Shown here in pieces: positions 11,371 to 17,148 of a stretch of 64,000 bases of DNA; the stretch's first letter is position 1, and each line of letters opens with the position of its first letter. A model generated the notes under the pieces. It did not search any database and was not told the DNA's origin. It saw nothing but the letters and a program-made list of their open reading frames with translations. The translations under genes were made by a program, and so were the position numbers. The stretch is from Chthoniobacterales bacterium (lineage in GTDB: Bacteria > Verrucomicrobiota > Verrucomicrobiia > Chthoniobacterales > UBA10450): contig DATENU010000019.1 of the NCBI GenBank assembly GCA_035274845.1, positions 62,001-126,000 of the forward strand, written 5' to 3'.

Positions 11371-11886
11371 GGACGGCGGCTGGTCAGCGCGCGACAGGAT
11401 TCGCGTCCTTCGCGCGCTACCCTTTTGCCTCTGGCGATCCACAAGGAGCGGCGCTTTCCAAACCGCCGTTTCTCTGTAGCCGCGTCCCTGCGGGACGCGC
11501 CCTGGTAGGGACGCCGCGCTGCGGCGTCCGGGGCCAACCGGCTTTTCCTGATTCCGCGAAGGTGGGATCGCGTGCTCCGTCGCGCGATGTTTGGAGCGGC
11601 CGCGCCAGGGGACAATAGAGTCGAAGCTGAAATTCCGCCCATCCCGCTCGATTTTCGGTCCGCCTCGGTGCCGCGCCAAGCGAAACTGTTTTTGATACCA
11701 TCGTCTTGTTCGCCAGCGGAAGCCTTCGGATGCGGCAGCTGCACGCCCTCAGATAGAGGAGATCGACCAATTCAACCTTGAGTCGCTCCCTGGTTTCATG
11801 ATTAATGAGTCGGAGCGTATGGTGTGGATCTGGGAGTGACATTGCACTCTCCTACCGGCCACCCCACAAATGACCAACCCCAATTT
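11371..11886. other. Gene-poor stretch between glgP and the cassette array
   Basis: I see no convincing gene on the + strand. On the - strand an open frame 11842-11417 begins with ATG preceded by a good Shine-Dalgarno (GTAGGAGAGTGCA). Its first 50 or so residues look possible, but it then runs through dispersed repeats at 11441-11530 and matches no family I know, so it may be a decayed gene. A cassette could once have stood here. Confidence 0.4.
11441..11530. repeat. Composite intergenic repeat (two families joined)
   Basis: 11441-11484 is nearly the same as 22853-22897 (ACAAGGAGCGGCG.TTT.CAAACCGCCGTTTCT...TGTAGCCGCG). 11504-11530 is a 27-base exact copy of 20969-20995 (starting GGTAGGGACGCCGCGCTGCG). 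Both parts contain short palindromes (GCGTCCCTGCGGGACGC). Such sequences behave like REP-type elements. Confidence 0.7.
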
Positions 11887-11952
11887 CCTTAACCCTTCGA
11901 AAATCCGCGTGCACCTGCACGTGCACGTGCTTTCGTCTAATTCTCGTTAGGT
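11887..11952 (+). repeat. attC-like site 0 (left end of the array)
   Basis: The R' box GTTAGGT at 11946-11952 sits in the conserved right-end context TCTAATTCTCGTTAG. A weak R'' (CCTTAAC, 11887-11893) and an imperfect stem, CGAAAATCCGCGTGCAC (11898-11914) against GTGCACGTGCTTTCG (11921-11935), complete a 66-base site. It is the most degenerate left half of the set, so it could also be a remnant. Confidence 0.6.
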
Positions 11953-11968
11953 CTATGCGTGCGCCGCG

Positions 11969-12325
11969 ATGAAAAGGTGGACCATTCTGTTCCTTGTCTT
12001 CGGCGCCCTGCTTGCCGTGGTGCTATTGCTGGGTTTTATGCGAGCCCGAGCTTATCGTCGGTTGTCCGTCCAAGCCGCACGCCTTCAGGATGCGGTGAGC
12101 CATGAGGCCGGACTCGGAGACGTCGGCGTTATCACTGACTCTACCGCTCCCTACGGAGTCGTCATATCTTGCAAGCGTCAGTTGCCCCCCGTCGACAAGG
12201 CGCGGTTAGAGCACCTTTTTCATGAATACCGCCCAGATATTCCGACACAGCAGGTGGACGAGATGCTTAGAATCTCTTACGAACTCCAGAACATGGACCT
12301 TTCTCCGGCACCATCTCCGCCTTAG
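11969..12325 (+). CDS. Cassette gene 1: small single-pass membrane protein
   Basis: 118 residues. One N-terminal hydrophobic segment (TILFLVFGALLAVVLLLGF, about 4-23) is followed by a basic stretch and a soluble tail ending in Pro/Ser. I recognise no family. A five-codon minicistron (ATG 11955 to TGA 11972) begins right after the R' box and overlaps the gene's ATG in an ATGA arrangement, a possible translational coupling device. No clear Shine-Dalgarno precedes the gene itself. The attC R'' box lies 17 bases after the stop. Confidence 0.65.
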   Translation: MKRWTILFLVFGALLAVVLLLGFMRARAYRRLSVQAARLQDAVSHEAGLGDVGVITDSTAPYGVVISCKRQLPPVDKARLEHLFHEYRPDIPTQQVDEMLRISYELQNMDLSPAPSPP

Positions 12326-12342
12326 AAAAGCTCGCGTGACGG

Positions 12343-12466
12343 ACCTAACCATGCGATGGAGCGAACGGCGGACCGGTGTCCGCTCCCCTTCTGAAATGAG
12401 TCCCACACTTCCACTCCGCGCGACGCGCTCTCTCGTCCGCCGTCGCTCATCTTGTCGTCGTTAGGT
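12343..12466 (+). repeat. attC site 1
   Basis: R'' ACCTAAC at 12343-12349, R' GTTAGGT at 12460-12466, 124 bases. The inner arm GATGGAGCGAACGGCGGA (12355-12372) pairs with TCCGCCGTCGCTCATC (12436-12451), leaving a G and an A unpaired, like the extrahelical bases that orient attC recombination. Confidence 0.9.
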
Positions 12467-12468
12467 CT

Positions 12469-12900
12469 ATGCAGCGCCACTCCGTTATCGTTTTGTTCTG
12501 CGCGGTGTTTTATCTTGGCGGAATGATGGCGCGTAACGTCGTGGCGGCCGATGACGACGTTCTCTTGTTCTTGATTTCTCATAGCGATCTCCATGCTGTG
12601 CTGACCTATTCGGTTCCTAAAGCTCGTCTCGACGCCACTGCGTGGCGCGACCGCAGCAAAGATGTCCCGTTGAGCGCTCGCGATGCGGTGCGCATCGCGA
12701 ACGCTACCCTGACGCCCGAGCAGCAGTGTGAGTGTCACCTGAACGCCGTAGCGTTAATGAAGCCCGAGTCGGAAGCACGAGACGAATGGTTTTTCTACAT
12801 GGTAAACTTTTGGACAGCCGACTACCACGATCAGAGAGAAGTCATTATCCTTCTCGACGGAACCGTGATTAGACCGATTTCGAAAGACACTAAGACCTAA
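12469..12900 (+). CDS. Cassette gene 2: exported hypothetical protein
   Basis: 143 residues with a signal-peptide-like N-terminus (VIVLFCAVFYLGGMMARNVVAA). The mature part has a central region RDAVRIANATLTPEQQCECHL and an aromatic-rich C-terminal half (EWFFYMVNFWTADYHD, then VIILLDGTVIRP) that suggests a small beta-rich domain of the PepSY/DUF-like size class, but I cannot assign it. The start codon lies two bases after the R' box, and the TAA stop is embedded in the next R'' box. Confidence 0.65.
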   Translation: MQRHSVIVLFCAVFYLGGMMARNVVAADDDVLLFLISHSDLHAVLTYSVPKARLDATAWRDRSKDVPLSARDAVRIANATLTPEQQCECHLNAVALMKPESEARDEWFFYMVNFWTADYHDQREVIILLDGTVIRPISKDTKT

Positions 12901-13017
12901 CCAGTCAGTGGAGCTAACCGCCACCCGCTGTGCGTTCACATCTTACATGACTAGAAATTCCTCGCTCCGAGTCGAGCTCGCCATCGGTGGCGGTAGCTCA
13001 CTTCTGTCTCGTTAGGT
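12895..13017 (+). repeat. attC site 2
   Basis: R'' ACCTAAC at 12895-12901 overlaps the preceding stop codon; R' GTTAGGT is at 13011-13017; 123 bases. The arm GTGGAGCTAACCGCCACC pairs with GGTGGCGGTAGCTCAC with the same two unpaired bases (G, A) as site 1, although the stem sequence differs. Confidence 0.9.
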
Positions 13018-13025
13018 CGCCGACT

Positions 13026-13454
13026 GTGGACATCTTGGGTGGCATTCTCGGTTGCGGTGTTTTGCTCGCGCTCACGGGGATCCTGTTTCCACTGTTGGGG
13101 CCACGAGTATCTGTCGCGGCGGCCCGGCGCGTTCGCTTTTGGACGCTCACTCCGGGCATCGTCATAATGATCGGTGTTGCCATCGCGTTCATCCTGGCTG
13201 CCGACGCGTGGGCAGCTCCATACCGGACGTCCGGCGGCTCGTCCATCTCTGAGCGATCGCCACCCGTGATCGAGCTGTTTTTGGGCCTGCCTTTGTTGCC
13301 GTTCTATTTCTTGTGTCGACTATTGTTTCCCGCCTGGACCGCGGCTGAGCACTATCCAGAGTTCTTGCTCCCGGTTTCGCTGCTCGACGCGTATGGCTGG
13401 ACGGCTATCATTTACGTCATAAGAAAACTTTGGAGGAAATTACCTCAGACCTAA
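13026..13454 (+). CDS. Cassette gene 3: multi-pass membrane protein
   Basis: 142 residues from a GTG start nine bases after the R' box. Hydrophobic segments at about 3-22, 38-58, 78-97 and 113-130 suggest four membrane passes; basic residues end the protein (RKLWRKLPQT). No family is recognised. The reading frame runs back into the attC site (GTG 12987), which I reject as the start. The TAA stop is inside the next R'' box. Confidence 0.6.
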   Translation: MDILGGILGCGVLLALTGILFPLLGPRVSVAAARRVRFWTLTPGIVIMIGVAIAFILAADAWAAPYRTSGGSSISERSPPVIELFLGLPLLPFYFLCRLLFPAWTAAEHYPEFLLPVSLLDAYGWTAIIYVIRKLWRKLPQT

Positions 13455-13510
13455 CCAGGTGATGGAGCGAATCCCGCGATGGCGGGATGCTCATCTTATT
13501 CTCGTTAGAT
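13449..13510 (+). repeat. attC site 3 (short)
   Basis: 62 bases, near the classic 59-base-element length. R'' ACCTAAC 13449-13455, R' GTTAGAT 13504-13510. The arm GATGGAGCGAATCCCGC pairs with GCGGGATGCTCATC. The terminal loop is minimal, so this is the cleanest hairpin in the array. Confidence 0.9.
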
Positions 13511-13538
13511 GTTTACGCGCGTCATCGGCTCTCGTTGC

Positions 13539-13946
13539 ATGAGAACCATCTTTTTCGCATTTCTGATGGCTGTCTCGAGTCTTTGCGCGGGGGATTCGCC
13601 TCCGGAGAAGGCGGCCATAGCGGCGGCCGCCGAGTGGTTGACGCTCGTGGACGCAGGTAAGAGTGGCGAGAGCTGGCAGGCATTGGCGGCAGCCCCTCGT
13701 GAGAGCATGGGACAATGGAAGTGGAAATTCGGTTTCAGTATGGCGCAACGCGAGTTTGGCGCGTTCCGCGACCGTAAACTGCGCTCGACGGAATTTACTA
13801 CGAAGAGCCCGGGAGGACGTTCCGGCGAGTTTGTTCTTTTGCAGTACGACACCACATCCACCAAGAAGGGCAAAGTCGTGGAGAAACTGACTGTGATGCG
13901 CGACACAGACGGACAGTGGAGGGTAGCCAGCTACACAGCCGAGTGA
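13539..13946 (+). CDS. Cassette gene 4: exported DUF4019-type protein
   Basis: 135 residues from ATG 13539, chosen because it starts a good signal peptide (MRTIFFAFLMAVSSLCAG). An upstream in-frame ATG at 13509 overlaps the R' box. The mature protein follows the DUF4019 pattern: AAAEWLTLVDAGKSGESWQA near the N-terminus, RKLRSTEFTTKSPGGRSGEF in the middle, and VMRDTDGQWRVASYTAE at the end. DUF4019 proteins are small periplasmic or extracytoplasmic proteins of unknown function. The TGA stop is immediately followed by the R'' box. Confidence 0.8.
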   Translation: MRTIFFAFLMAVSSLCAGDSPPEKAAIAAAAEWLTLVDAGKSGESWQALAAAPRESMGQWKWKFGFSMAQREFGAFRDRKLRSTEFTTKSPGGRSGEFVLLQYDTTSTKKGKVVEKLTVMRDTDGQWRVASYTAE

Positions 13947-14063
13947 ACCCAACATCTGACGAACCGCTGGCCGCACCGCGTTCCGGCTTCCCACGACTCC
14001 CACATTCAACCTGCAGTCACGCGCGCTCTCGCCAGCGGTCGCTGATCTTGTGTCTCATTAGGC
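13947..14063 (+). repeat. attC site 4
   Basis: R'' ACCCAAC 13947-13953, directly after the stop. The R' box is ATTAGGC at 14057-14063, one base off GTTRRRY. The arm ATCTGACGAACCGCTGGC pairs with GCCAGCGGTCGCTGAT, again with unpaired bases. 117 bases. The changed R' base at the crossover may weaken this site. Confidence 0.82.
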
Positions 14064-14081
14064 CGCTGCCGCGCGCACTCC

Positions 14082-14639
14082 GTGAACGAAGGCAAAAGCA
14101 TCCGTCTCGAAGTCAGCGATGGTTTCTGCCTCAGTCCCATCGTGCGAGCCGACAAGGCCGCTTACTTGGAGCATTTCGCCGACCCTGAGATTGTCCACAA
14201 CCTGTTGGCCATACCGTTCCCCTACACGGAGGCGGACGCCGACTGGTGGCTCGACCGCTGCGAGCAATCCGTCGACTCTTCAACCACGAATTTCGCTCTC
14301 CGTGAGCCATCAGGCTACCTAATCGGTGCCATCGGCATGGTCGGAGAGCTGTCGGCAGATGCTCATAGTGCAGAGTTCGGTTACTGGTTGGCGCAGTCTT
14401 ATCGCGGGCTCGGCCTGATGCCCCGCGTCATCCGCACATTCAGCGACTACGCATTTCAACAGCTCCGAATTCATCGGCTTTTTGCTACGCCTTTCTCCCC
14501 GAACGTTCCTTCGCACCGCACCCTGGAGAAGGCAGGCTTTCAGCGCGAAGGTCTGCTCAGACATCACCATTTCAAGCAAGGCGTTTACCTCGACGCCATT
14601 ATTTATGCACGCATTTCTGAATCAAAGGCAACCGCCTAA
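14082..14639 (+). CDS. Cassette gene 5: GNAT-family N-acetyltransferase (RimJ/RimL-like)
   Basis: 185 residues from a GTG start. The acetyl-CoA-binding fold shows as SGYLIGAIGMVGEL, AEFGYWLAQSYRGLGLMPRV (motif A, Q/RxxGxG/A-like), then RLFATPFSPNVPSHRTLEKAGFQREG, the usual closing block of RimJ/RimL-type enzymes. The substrate is unknown. Acetyltransferases of this superfamily are common in integron cassettes, some giving drug resistance, but nothing here predicts a particular substrate. The TAA stop is inside the R'' box. Confidence 0.88.
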   Translation: MNEGKSIRLEVSDGFCLSPIVRADKAAYLEHFADPEIVHNLLAIPFPYTEADADWWLDRCEQSVDSSTTNFALREPSGYLIGAIGMVGELSADAHSAEFGYWLAQSYRGLGLMPRVIRTFSDYAFQQLRIHRLFATPFSPNVPSHRTLEKAGFQREGLLRHHHFKQGVYLDAIIYARISESKATA

Positions 14640-14757
14640 CCATGCGATCCAGCGAACGCCTACGCGTCGTTCGCTTCAGACTTCCCGTGACCAAACCATT
14701 TCACCTCCGACCAATGCTCATTCCCGGTAGGCGTCGCTGATCTTATTCTCGTTAGAC
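14634..14757 (+). repeat. attC site 5
   Basis: R'' GCCTAAC 14634-14640, R' GTTAGAC 14751-14757, 124 bases. The arm GATCCAGCGAACGCCTAC pairs with GTAGGCGTCGCTGATC, leaving C and A unpaired. The right-end context CTGATCTTATTCTCGTTAG matches sites 0, 3 and 4 closely. Confidence 0.9.
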
Positions 14758-14772
14758 GTAAAGGCCGCATCG

Positions 14773-15126
14773 ATGCCGAACGGAAAAGGCGCTCTTGAAT
14801 GTTGTTACTGTCGGCACTTCGCCGGCCCGCCCGGCTACGGTTGGGGCGCGTATCAGGCTGCCCGATGTAAGTTTCATGACGTCATGCTGCCGGCCTCTGA
14901 TGATGGTCTCCAGCGCGTTTGCTGTCACTTCGAGCCGAACGACACGTATTGGCAGGACAACCCTGGGGGCTTTTTTCCACCTGCGCGCCGCTTCGCGTGG
15001 TTTACTCAGGATCTAGAGCCAGACGTATTGTACTTCTTCTTTTACAACTCGCCGGATAAGATCACGCGTGAGATCGTCCTCAGAAAACCGAATTATCAGT
15101 CGGGCACATGGACACCAAACGCCTAG
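14773..15126 (+). CDS. Cassette gene 6: Cys-containing hypothetical protein
   Basis: 117 residues. The N-terminal half has ECCYCRHF, then CKFHDV and CCHFEP, a spaced Cys/His set that could bind a metal. The C-terminal half is aromatic (VLYFFFYNSPDK). No signal peptide and no known family recognised. The stop overlaps GCCTAGG, a damaged R'' box; no matching R' box follows, so this is the last recognisable cassette. Confidence 0.6.
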   Translation: MPNGKGALECCYCRHFAGPPGYGWGAYQAARCKFHDVMLPASDDGLQRVCCHFEPNDTYWQDNPGGFFPPARRFAWFTQDLEPDVLYFFFYNSPDKITREIVLRKPNYQSGTWTPNA

Positions 15127-15255: not shown

Positions 15256-15291
15256 CGGCTCGACTGCGCTTTGCTCCGCTCGAGATGACAC
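15256..15291. repeat. Half copy of the GTCATCCCGAGCGGAGCGAAG element
   Basis: GGCTCGACTGCGCTTTGCTC and the following CGCTCGAGATGACAC match the right arm of the element at 17210-17249. It stands between the cassette array and the convergent GDSL hydrolase gene and could mark the array's end. Confidence 0.55.
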
Positions 15292-17087
15292 TACGGGATG
15301 CGGTAGGCTTCGACCAGCGCGACACCGGTCGTGTTGTTCCTGCCGCGAACGATGACGGTGTAATTCCCCGGCTCCAGTGACGCGACGATGGTCGCTTCGC
15401 GATCGTCGGCTGGGGTTAGCCCGATAGCCCGAATCGCTGCCGTTTGCGTGTCCTTCCAATCGTCGTTGAACTCGATTTCATCGCCATTGCCGTTATGGAG
15501 CTCGATCGTTGGGTCCAACAAAGGATGCGTGATCCCCGCATTCAACAAGCTCGGCCCGATGGCGCGCATTGCTACGATCGGTCCCTGGCCGCTGCCGATG
15601 ATGAGGCCTCCGATCAGCACGTTATTCCCGACACCGACAAACCCGCGCGTGCTGATATTAGCCAGGGTCGCGCCCGGTGCGGTATCCAGATCATAAACCT
15701 CCACGAGCCCGTTCCCGTTCCCTCCATTCTGGCCGGCCAACACCGCGGTGTAAGACCCGGGCGCCAGCGTCCGGATGATAGCCGACTCCAAATCATTCGT
15801 GGGCGCGAGGCCGGTCGCCGCGATCTCCGACTCCTGGGTTGTCCTCCAATTGTCGTTTGTTGCCAGGGAACTGTTGGCCGAATCGAAAAGCTCAAGCGTG
15901 GGATTTGCCAGCACGTCCGGGACGCCGCTGCCGGTTAGGGAGGGACCGATCCCGCGAAGCAACACGCGTTTCGCGATCGAGCCCGTGATGATGAAACCGG
16001 CGATCGAGACATTCTCGCCGGTGCCGACCGTGACTCGACTGGAAAGATTCAATGCTCTTGCGGAAGCGCCAGCTGAACCGCTCAACGCGCGGTTCGCCTC
16101 TTTCGCAATCTGAAAATGCCCGGCGGTGGTCGGGTGAAGAACATCCCAGAAAAGGAATTGATCGGGGTTGGCGGAAGAGTCGCCTTGCGCCACGTGGCCA
16201 ATATCGGTGAAGCCATAATCGGAGGGCTGCGCGGCGATCCGAACAAAACGCGACCAAATATCGAGCCGATAAATGGTGGGATGGACGCCCTGCGCGGCCA
16301 GGGTGTTCACCGTCGAATCCAGAGCCGCGTCCAGTTGAAACCGATAGGCGCCCGCCGCTTCGTTCAGGGAAGTTATTCTTGCCTCGTCCCCAGCGTAATT
16401 TGGGAACATGCCCAGCGGCGGCACGTTTGGCACGAGGATGTGATTTGCTCCCGCCAGGGCCAGACGGCTTATCAGGCTGCCCACTCGGTTGGCCGTAGCC
16501 GACACACTGGCAGGGCTTTCGTCATTAAGGAGATCGTTGATCCCGCCCCAGACGAGATAGAGGGCGTTCCCATTCACGGCATGGCTGGCCAGATAATCGT
16601 CGACCTGTTTGCCCATGTTATCGATCGTGATGGTGAGATCCCCGCCCGGGGAGGGGATCACTGTCCGTTCGCTGGTGCCGTTCTGGGTGGTCGCTGCGCC
16701 AAACGCGAAATCGGTCCCGCCACCCAGACTGAAGGTCGCTGCCGGCAAACCGAGAAAGCTTTGCGCGAGCTGTTCGTGCCAGAGACCGGCGTACATCGCA
16801 GATCCAGGAGTGGTGTTCGCGCTATTGGTGAACCGGCCGTCCGCAAAATTGTAAACGCCGCTGGGATAACTGACCTGTCCTCCTGACGCGGTTTCCGTTC
16901 GGCGCCGAACGTTCCCGTCGTCAGAGTAGCTGTCCCCAAAAACAATGACTTGAGAGAACGTGGGCGGGTTCTGTCCGAAGGCGTGACTGATTGGAAGAAA
17001 GAGGGACATGAGCACGACCACCGCGCATCGCGAAATCGCGAGGAGCTCAGCTACTTGGCTTGGGTGAAGCGGGCGCAGAATTCTCAT
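15291..17087 (-). CDS. Secreted SGNH/GDSL hydrolase with C-terminal tandem repeat module
   Basis: 598 residues from ATG 17087 (an upstream TTG at 17111 is less likely). A signal peptide is followed by a GDSL esterase/lipase domain: nucleophile block VIVFGDSYSDDGN, WGGINDLLND (oxyanion Asn), and DVLHPTTAGH with the Asp-His pair. From about residue 345 it carries two homologous repeats of about 120 residues, the first starting LNLSSRVTVGTGENVSIAGF and the second around LANISTRGFVGVGNNVLIGG; each contains a GIGPSL- or AIGPSL-type core and ends with VEVYDL or VEAYRI. The same module ends three other proteins here (near 33.3, 36.3 and 43.5 kb). Role: extracellular ester hydrolysis, substrate unknown. 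Confidence 0.82.
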   Translation of the reverse strand: MRILRPLHPSQVAELLAISRCAVVVLMSLFLPISHAFGQNPPTFSQVIVFGDSYSDDGNVRRRTETASGGQVSYPSGVYNFADGRFTNSANTTPGSAMYAGLWHEQLAQSFLGLPAATFSLGGGTDFAFGAATTQNGTSERTVIPSPGGDLTITIDNMGKQVDDYLASHAVNGNALYLVWGGINDLLNDESPASVSATANRVGSLISRLALAGANHILVPNVPPLGMFPNYAGDEARITSLNEAAGAYRFQLDAALDSTVNTLAAQGVHPTIYRLDIWSRFVRIAAQPSDYGFTDIGHVAQGDSSANPDQFLFWDVLHPTTAGHFQIAKEANRALSGSAGASARALNLSSRVTVGTGENVSIAGFIITGSIAKRVLLRGIGPSLTGSGVPDVLANPTLELFDSANSSLATNDNWRTTQESEIAATGLAPTNDLESAIIRTLAPGSYTAVLAGQNGGNGNGLVEVYDLDTAPGATLANISTRGFVGVGNNVLIGGLIIGSGQGPIVAMRAIGPSLLNAGITHPLLDPTIELHNGNGDEIEFNDDWKDTQTAAIRAIGLTPADDREATIVASLEPGNYTVIVRGRNNTTGVALVEAYRIP

Positions 17088-17148
17088 GGGGTGACCGTAA
17101 ATAATTTTCAAGCTAACTCATCTGTTCCTGCTTTCCGAACGAAAAGCT

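Follow-up and report, generated by a model that had tools for sequence, protein, structure and literature searches.

An integron platform without an integrase and with an attI-type head in a soil bacterium of the Chthoniobacterales

The cassette array and its first site

The DNA analyzed here, called the window throughout, is a 64-kb stretch from a soil bacterium of the Chthoniobacterales. It carries a chromosomal cassette array at about 11.88 to 15.13 kb, inside a 199-kb contig, between gph and an SGNH gene. We found that the stretch from 11687 to 15126 is an integron platform without an integrase, in which an attI-type head is followed by six cassettes, of which the first five have an attC site and the last has lost it. 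The features are listed below, with scores from two covariance models, R1 for attC sites and R2 for attI-type sites.

11687 to 11842, minus strand: decayed gene of a small protein of about 67 aa, in the position of an integrase gene and divergent from the array; profile positions 1 to 59 of 67, E=5e-9; compared with intact copies, it lacks an internal stretch and the C terminus
11876 to 11952, plus strand: attI-type head, core GTTAGGT at 11946 to 11952; R2 23.6 bits, E=0.0013 in 329 kb; the distance of 103 bp between GTTAG and the start codon of the small-protein gene matches that in relatives
11969 to 12325, plus strand: cassette gene 1, short protein whose N-terminal part includes a hydrophobic stretch; no Pfam match
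12343 to 12466, plus strand: attC 1; R1 106.3 bits, E=8.5e-31
12469 to 12900, plus strand: cassette gene 2, protein without a Pfam match, probably exported; its stop codon falls within the next R'' box
12895 to 13017, plus strand: attC 2; R1 111.2 bits, E=2.5e-32
13023 to 13454, plus strand: cassette gene 3, probable membrane protein without a Pfam match; its start codon is taken to follow the R' box, and its stop codon falls within the next R'' box
13449 to 13510, plus strand: attC 3, short form; R1 49.6 bits, E=4.2e-13
13509 to 13946, plus strand: cassette gene 4, DUF4019 protein; Pfam PF13211, E=2.5e-23
13947 to 14063, plus strand: attC 4, R'' region degenerate, ATTAGGC replacing GTTAGGC; R1 57.7 bits, E=1.2e-15
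14082 to 14639, plus strand: cassette gene 5, GNAT acetyltransferase; Pfam PF13302, E=2.2e-23; stop codon within the next R'' box
14634 to 14757, plus strand: attC 5; R1 97.1 bits, E=6.3e-28
14773 to 15126, plus strand: cassette gene 6, Cys-containing protein; no Pfam match; attC missing

A first-pass annotation, made from the letters of the window, had described boxes alternating with short same-strand genes and stop codons at 12900, 13454 and 14639 within R'' boxes, and both are seen directly in the sequence. Its assignment of two cargo proteins, GNAT and DUF4019, was matched by Pfam, and a Pfam search of all six cargo proteins left four (genes 1, 2, 3, and 6) without a match. An Rfam search of the window returned nothing but one tRNA. 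Beyond the array, the minus-strand gene at 15291 to 17111 ends in an exported-protein domain that is very largely expanded in the genus, with dozens to more than 100 copies per genome; its C-terminal 250 or so residues gave 71 to 129 matches per genome in seven sister genomes.

The attC sites were scored with R1, which was built, with the window sequence excluded, from 46 intI-proximal attC sites of relatives, namely five congeneric species and one from a different genus of the family. In the training alignment, 96% of the cells of the attC stem are paired, and the unpaired bases stand at fixed positions. Changes on both sides of a pair occupy 122 cells, compared with 43 in shuffles, and affect twelve stem pairs; the covariation score is 0.318, compared with 0.112 after shuffling, and shifting the partner by 1 to 3 columns abolishes the covariation. 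This bears out the earlier impression that the stems are conserved in structure rather than in sequence. The window sites fit R1, with pairing of R'' and R', an imperfect stem, and extrahelical bases at fixed places. Over the 64-kb window, R1 returned five sites, all on one strand, with E values from 4e-13 to 3e-32 and, beyond these, nothing except 11887 to 11952, at 15 bits (E=0.027). Thus, five of the six attC-like sites with R'' and R' boxes that had been proposed are attC sites; the covariance-model check suggested at the time scored these five strongly, and the first of the six is an attI-type site instead.

No attC follows the sixth gene (14773 to 15126). Another array of this genome contains a cassette 79% identical to that of gene 6, with its attC intact. 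The similarity between the two stops at 15125, inside the R'' box, which indicates that the sixth attC was lost.

Judged by sequence and position, the first site (11876 to 11952) is an attI-type head. In relatives, the sites adjacent to intI consist of a hairpin followed by ..CGTCTAATTCTCGTTAG or a near variant, and the last 24 bp of the window site match, base for base, those of the intI-linked attI of a sister species (G033). R2, a model of 15 integrase-linked attI-type sites, also recovers the window head, with a score that is modest when taken alone. By R2 and the 24-bp identity, an attI-type site thus stands upstream of the first cassette, as in a complete integron.

We compared the locus across eight species. 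In six of the seven sister species gph is directly followed by pafA, in the seventh (G050) the order is gph, the SGNH gene, and pafA, and in none of the seven is an array present. Of the eight species, only this one therefore has the window array, which was gained or lost, and the same genes in the same order, which would have spoken against a mobile array, were not found at this locus in the sister species. In G003, a genome from another genus of the family, gph, which in the window precedes the array, is followed directly by an intact intI (locus L078, 6387 to 7343, minus strand); the adjacency may be ancestral, may mark a hot spot, or may be coincidental.

Headed arrays without an integrase across the genome

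With R2, ten headed arrays were found in the window's genome. Their heads, named by contig, scored as follows.

C23: 57.6 bits
C8b: 53.1 bits
C19a: 49.3 bits
C9: 47.3 bits
C24: 44.8 bits
C15: 34.5 bits
C21: 27.3 bits
C8a: 23.9 bits
Window: 23.6 bits
C20: 20.0 bits

Most attC sites score below 16 bits under R2, and three score 19 to 24 bits. Since R2 alone cannot separate the weakest heads from attC sites, we also weighed position, flanks in common, and the R1 score, which is 15 bits for the window head. All ten heads lie on the strand of their own array, upstream of its first attC. They share a structured site of about 65 bp with the integrase-linked attI sites, many with E below 1e-8. Three of them (window, C20, and C21) have about 220 bp of upstream sequence in common, which contains the start of the divergent gene. 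The genome holds 34 to 36 attC sites in total, and four additional attC groups are headless. When a collection of species genomes was searched for the 20-bp head end, every exact match fell in an assembly of Verrucomicrobia or of Spartobacteria/Chthoniobacterales; most of these assemblies are from soil by their titles, and several are the sister species used here.

The genome is a draft of 4.54 Mb in 24 contigs and is 95.9% complete. A TIGR02249 search of it returned no match over the cut-off (best, 78.7 bits); the best matches below the cut-off are XerC/D-like, and the search gives such matches in 14 of 14 control genomes as well. Matches over the cut-off occur in 28 of 61 family genomes, including five of the seven sister species. 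We found no convincing intI similarity beside the window head. Thus, the integrase gene of a complete integron is absent from this assembly, and the annotation was right in calling this a chromosomal cassette array without an integrase. What it had missed were the attI-type head, the roughly ten headed arrays, and the decayed small-protein gene. Its proposed genome-wide search for intI and sister cassettes gave no intI over the cut-off and, on the other count, the 79% sister cassette described above.

Scraps of the 5' end of intI adjoin three heads, C19a (77% over 26 aa, E=1e-7), C23, and C24; some heads are therefore integrons that lost intI. The window head and most of the rest showed no such scrap. 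The pattern recurs in a sister species, G026 (97% complete), in which no intI was found even at E 1e-25. Of the 17 attI-like sites fetched from that genome, 14 have same-strand attC sites after them; one of the resulting 14 headed arrays adjoins an intI scrap.

Two observations concern relatives that do retain intI. In G039, a second attI-type site (L068, 11751 to 11821, minus strand) heads an array on a contig that also carries an intI-bearing integron; orphan heads thus occur also beside integrons that retain intI. At five loci (L065, L068, L069, L079, and L080), intI reads toward attI and the array, and other relatives show the usual divergent layout.

A small-protein gene in the integrase position

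The divergent gene occurs at the window, C20, and C21 heads, and these three copies, the only ones in the genome, are all decayed. We considered whether the divergent open reading frame at the window head is a truncated intI and rejected this, as it has no convincing similarity to intI and its homologues form a family of their own. Intact homologues of about 67 aa are encoded in other genera of the family. We read ten loci from other genomes of the family at length, and at all of them the gene, whether or not it is intact, diverges from an attI-type end. R1 found attC sites following at eight of the ten, and at the other two (L185 and L190) the contigs end a few hundred bases past the gene. 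The GTTAG core lies 103 to 105 bp from the start codon in the seven loci with an intact start, and 103 bp from it in the window. No intI was found in the 82 kb of small-protein-locus stretches from other family genomes. Codon positions and the comparison of dN with dS indicate purifying selection on the gene, with several dS values saturated.

Profile searches matched 9 of 197 genomes of the order. More distant matches came from two other families of the phylum, in five genomes; all five encode intI elsewhere, and two of them show attC sites downstream of the gene. Among the six loci of these distant homologues, a simple attC scan gave attC sites on the expected strand at L203 and L205 and no convincing array on that strand at L200, L202, and L204, and L201 ends too soon. 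Within the family, 6 of the 11 genomes with the small protein have intI, which is close to the family average, and co-occurrence there therefore proves nothing.

Searches of Pfam, PHROG, and NCBIfam with the intact homologues gave no family match (best in Pfam, E=0.08, below the cut-off). The best match among the sequences of solved structures had E=1.1, and the protein was absent from viral contigs. The predicted fold has strands and then a helix, with four strands in the single-sequence model (pLDDT 85) and three in the model from seven sequences (pLDDT 71). Foldseek with this fold returned no match reaching E 0.001; PUR and PC4 chains, of single-strand-binding fold, scored Z 2.7 to 3.0 against the predicted model, amid many unrelated chains, and no structure stood out among the matches. 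Our best guess, from the position and constant spacing of the gene, is that the protein is a DNA-binding factor of the head. In another genome (G007, L184, 2208 to 2246, plus strand), a weak and possibly chance match to the intI-type attI hairpin (12.7 bits, E=0.34) lies just past the 3' end of the small-protein gene.

These data suggest, tentatively and at rather less than even confidence, a second kind of integron head in Verrucomicrobiota, in which the divergent gene of the 67-aa protein takes the integrase's place 103 to 105 bp from the attI-type core. Such arrays would be served in trans by an IntI encoded elsewhere, and the protein, bound to the head, would control recombination or the expression of cassettes there.

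Origin of the headed arrays and comparison with known integrons

In known systems, attI is recombined by IntI with the bottom strand of attC (PMC8352920), and a functional IntI can mobilize intI-less arrays in trans (PMC12444791). We therefore propose, as the probable explanation, an integron with dispersed capture sites, at which cassettes entered beside the head by IntI-type recombination and the integrase was encoded elsewhere and has since been lost or lies in an assembly gap. Cassettes would be inserted next to the head when the folded attC strand recombines with attI, and IntI would be supplied from another locus, so that one integrase may serve many such sites. Heads would have arisen in at least two ways, from complete integrons that lost intI and by the small-protein gene taking the integrase's place, as at the window head; the small protein would bind the head. 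The many dispersed headed arrays, with few or no intI in this species and its sisters, argue for service in trans; the small part of the genome missing from the assembly counts against this reading. Since all three small-protein copies in this genome have decayed, the activity may have ended.

It is also conceivable, if unlikely, that every orphan head is a dead, once-complete integron, with intI deleted in place, nothing acting in trans, and the small-protein gene an unrelated neighbor. The intI scraps at three heads here and at one in G026 fit this account, as does the decay of the small-protein genes in this genome. However, it leaves unexplained the window and most other heads, which adjoin no scrap; constant spacing and purifying selection are not expected of an unrelated neighbor, and the window array is private to its species.

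We give somewhat less credence to an integrase that is present in the unassembled 4% or so of the genome, which would make these the ordinary outlying arrays of an intact integron. The draft state of the assembly and the intI genes of five sister species are compatible with this, but the array is internal to its contig, so that intI is not adjacent in any case, and G026 likewise lacks intI at 97% completeness. This explanation and service in trans from a source since lost or in a gap differ only in the persistence of that source. Last, insertion by an integrase in trans at chance attG-like sites, with the heads not being attI, invokes a process that PMC12444791 and PMC12901181 describe (cassette insertion at sites that are neither attI nor attC), but it is very improbable here, because chance sites would not yield a structured site of about 65 bp shared with integrase-linked attI, far beyond the short core, or the 220 bp common to three heads.

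Integrase-less cassette clusters are common. Like a CALIN (cluster of attC sites lacking an integron integrase), which has at least two attC sites, no intI nearby, and short cassette genes on one strand, the window array has five close same-strand attC sites and no integron integrase nearby. However, a CALIN is defined as headless, whereas ten arrays here start with an attI-type site, and one class of head has a conserved divergent small-protein gene. The outlying CALINs of Xanthomonas are likewise described without attI heads in the accessible text of PMC12444791. A sedentary chromosomal integron shares the attI-type site before the first cassette, similar attC sites throughout, and cargo mostly of unknown function, and intact intI-bearing versions exist in sister species; but it is a single platform, whereas here no intI is found at the array or in the assembly, and the arrays are many, small, and dispersed. 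Integrons with decayed intI, such as those of Xanthomonas (PMC12444791), have likewise lost intI and kept the array, and scraps at three heads here resemble them; the window head is instead free of scraps, with another gene in the intI position.

Our literature search found neither the attI-headed dispersed organization nor the small-protein heads described, which is weak evidence, as most subscription journals lay outside the search. The headed arrays can be compared with integrase-bearing sister species, which makes the choice between a dead relic and a capture site served in trans directly testable. If true, a small protein conserved in the position of the integrase would add a new component to the integron. 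A cassette array without an integrase is of a known kind, and what is new is the attI-headed dispersed organization together with the small-protein heads.
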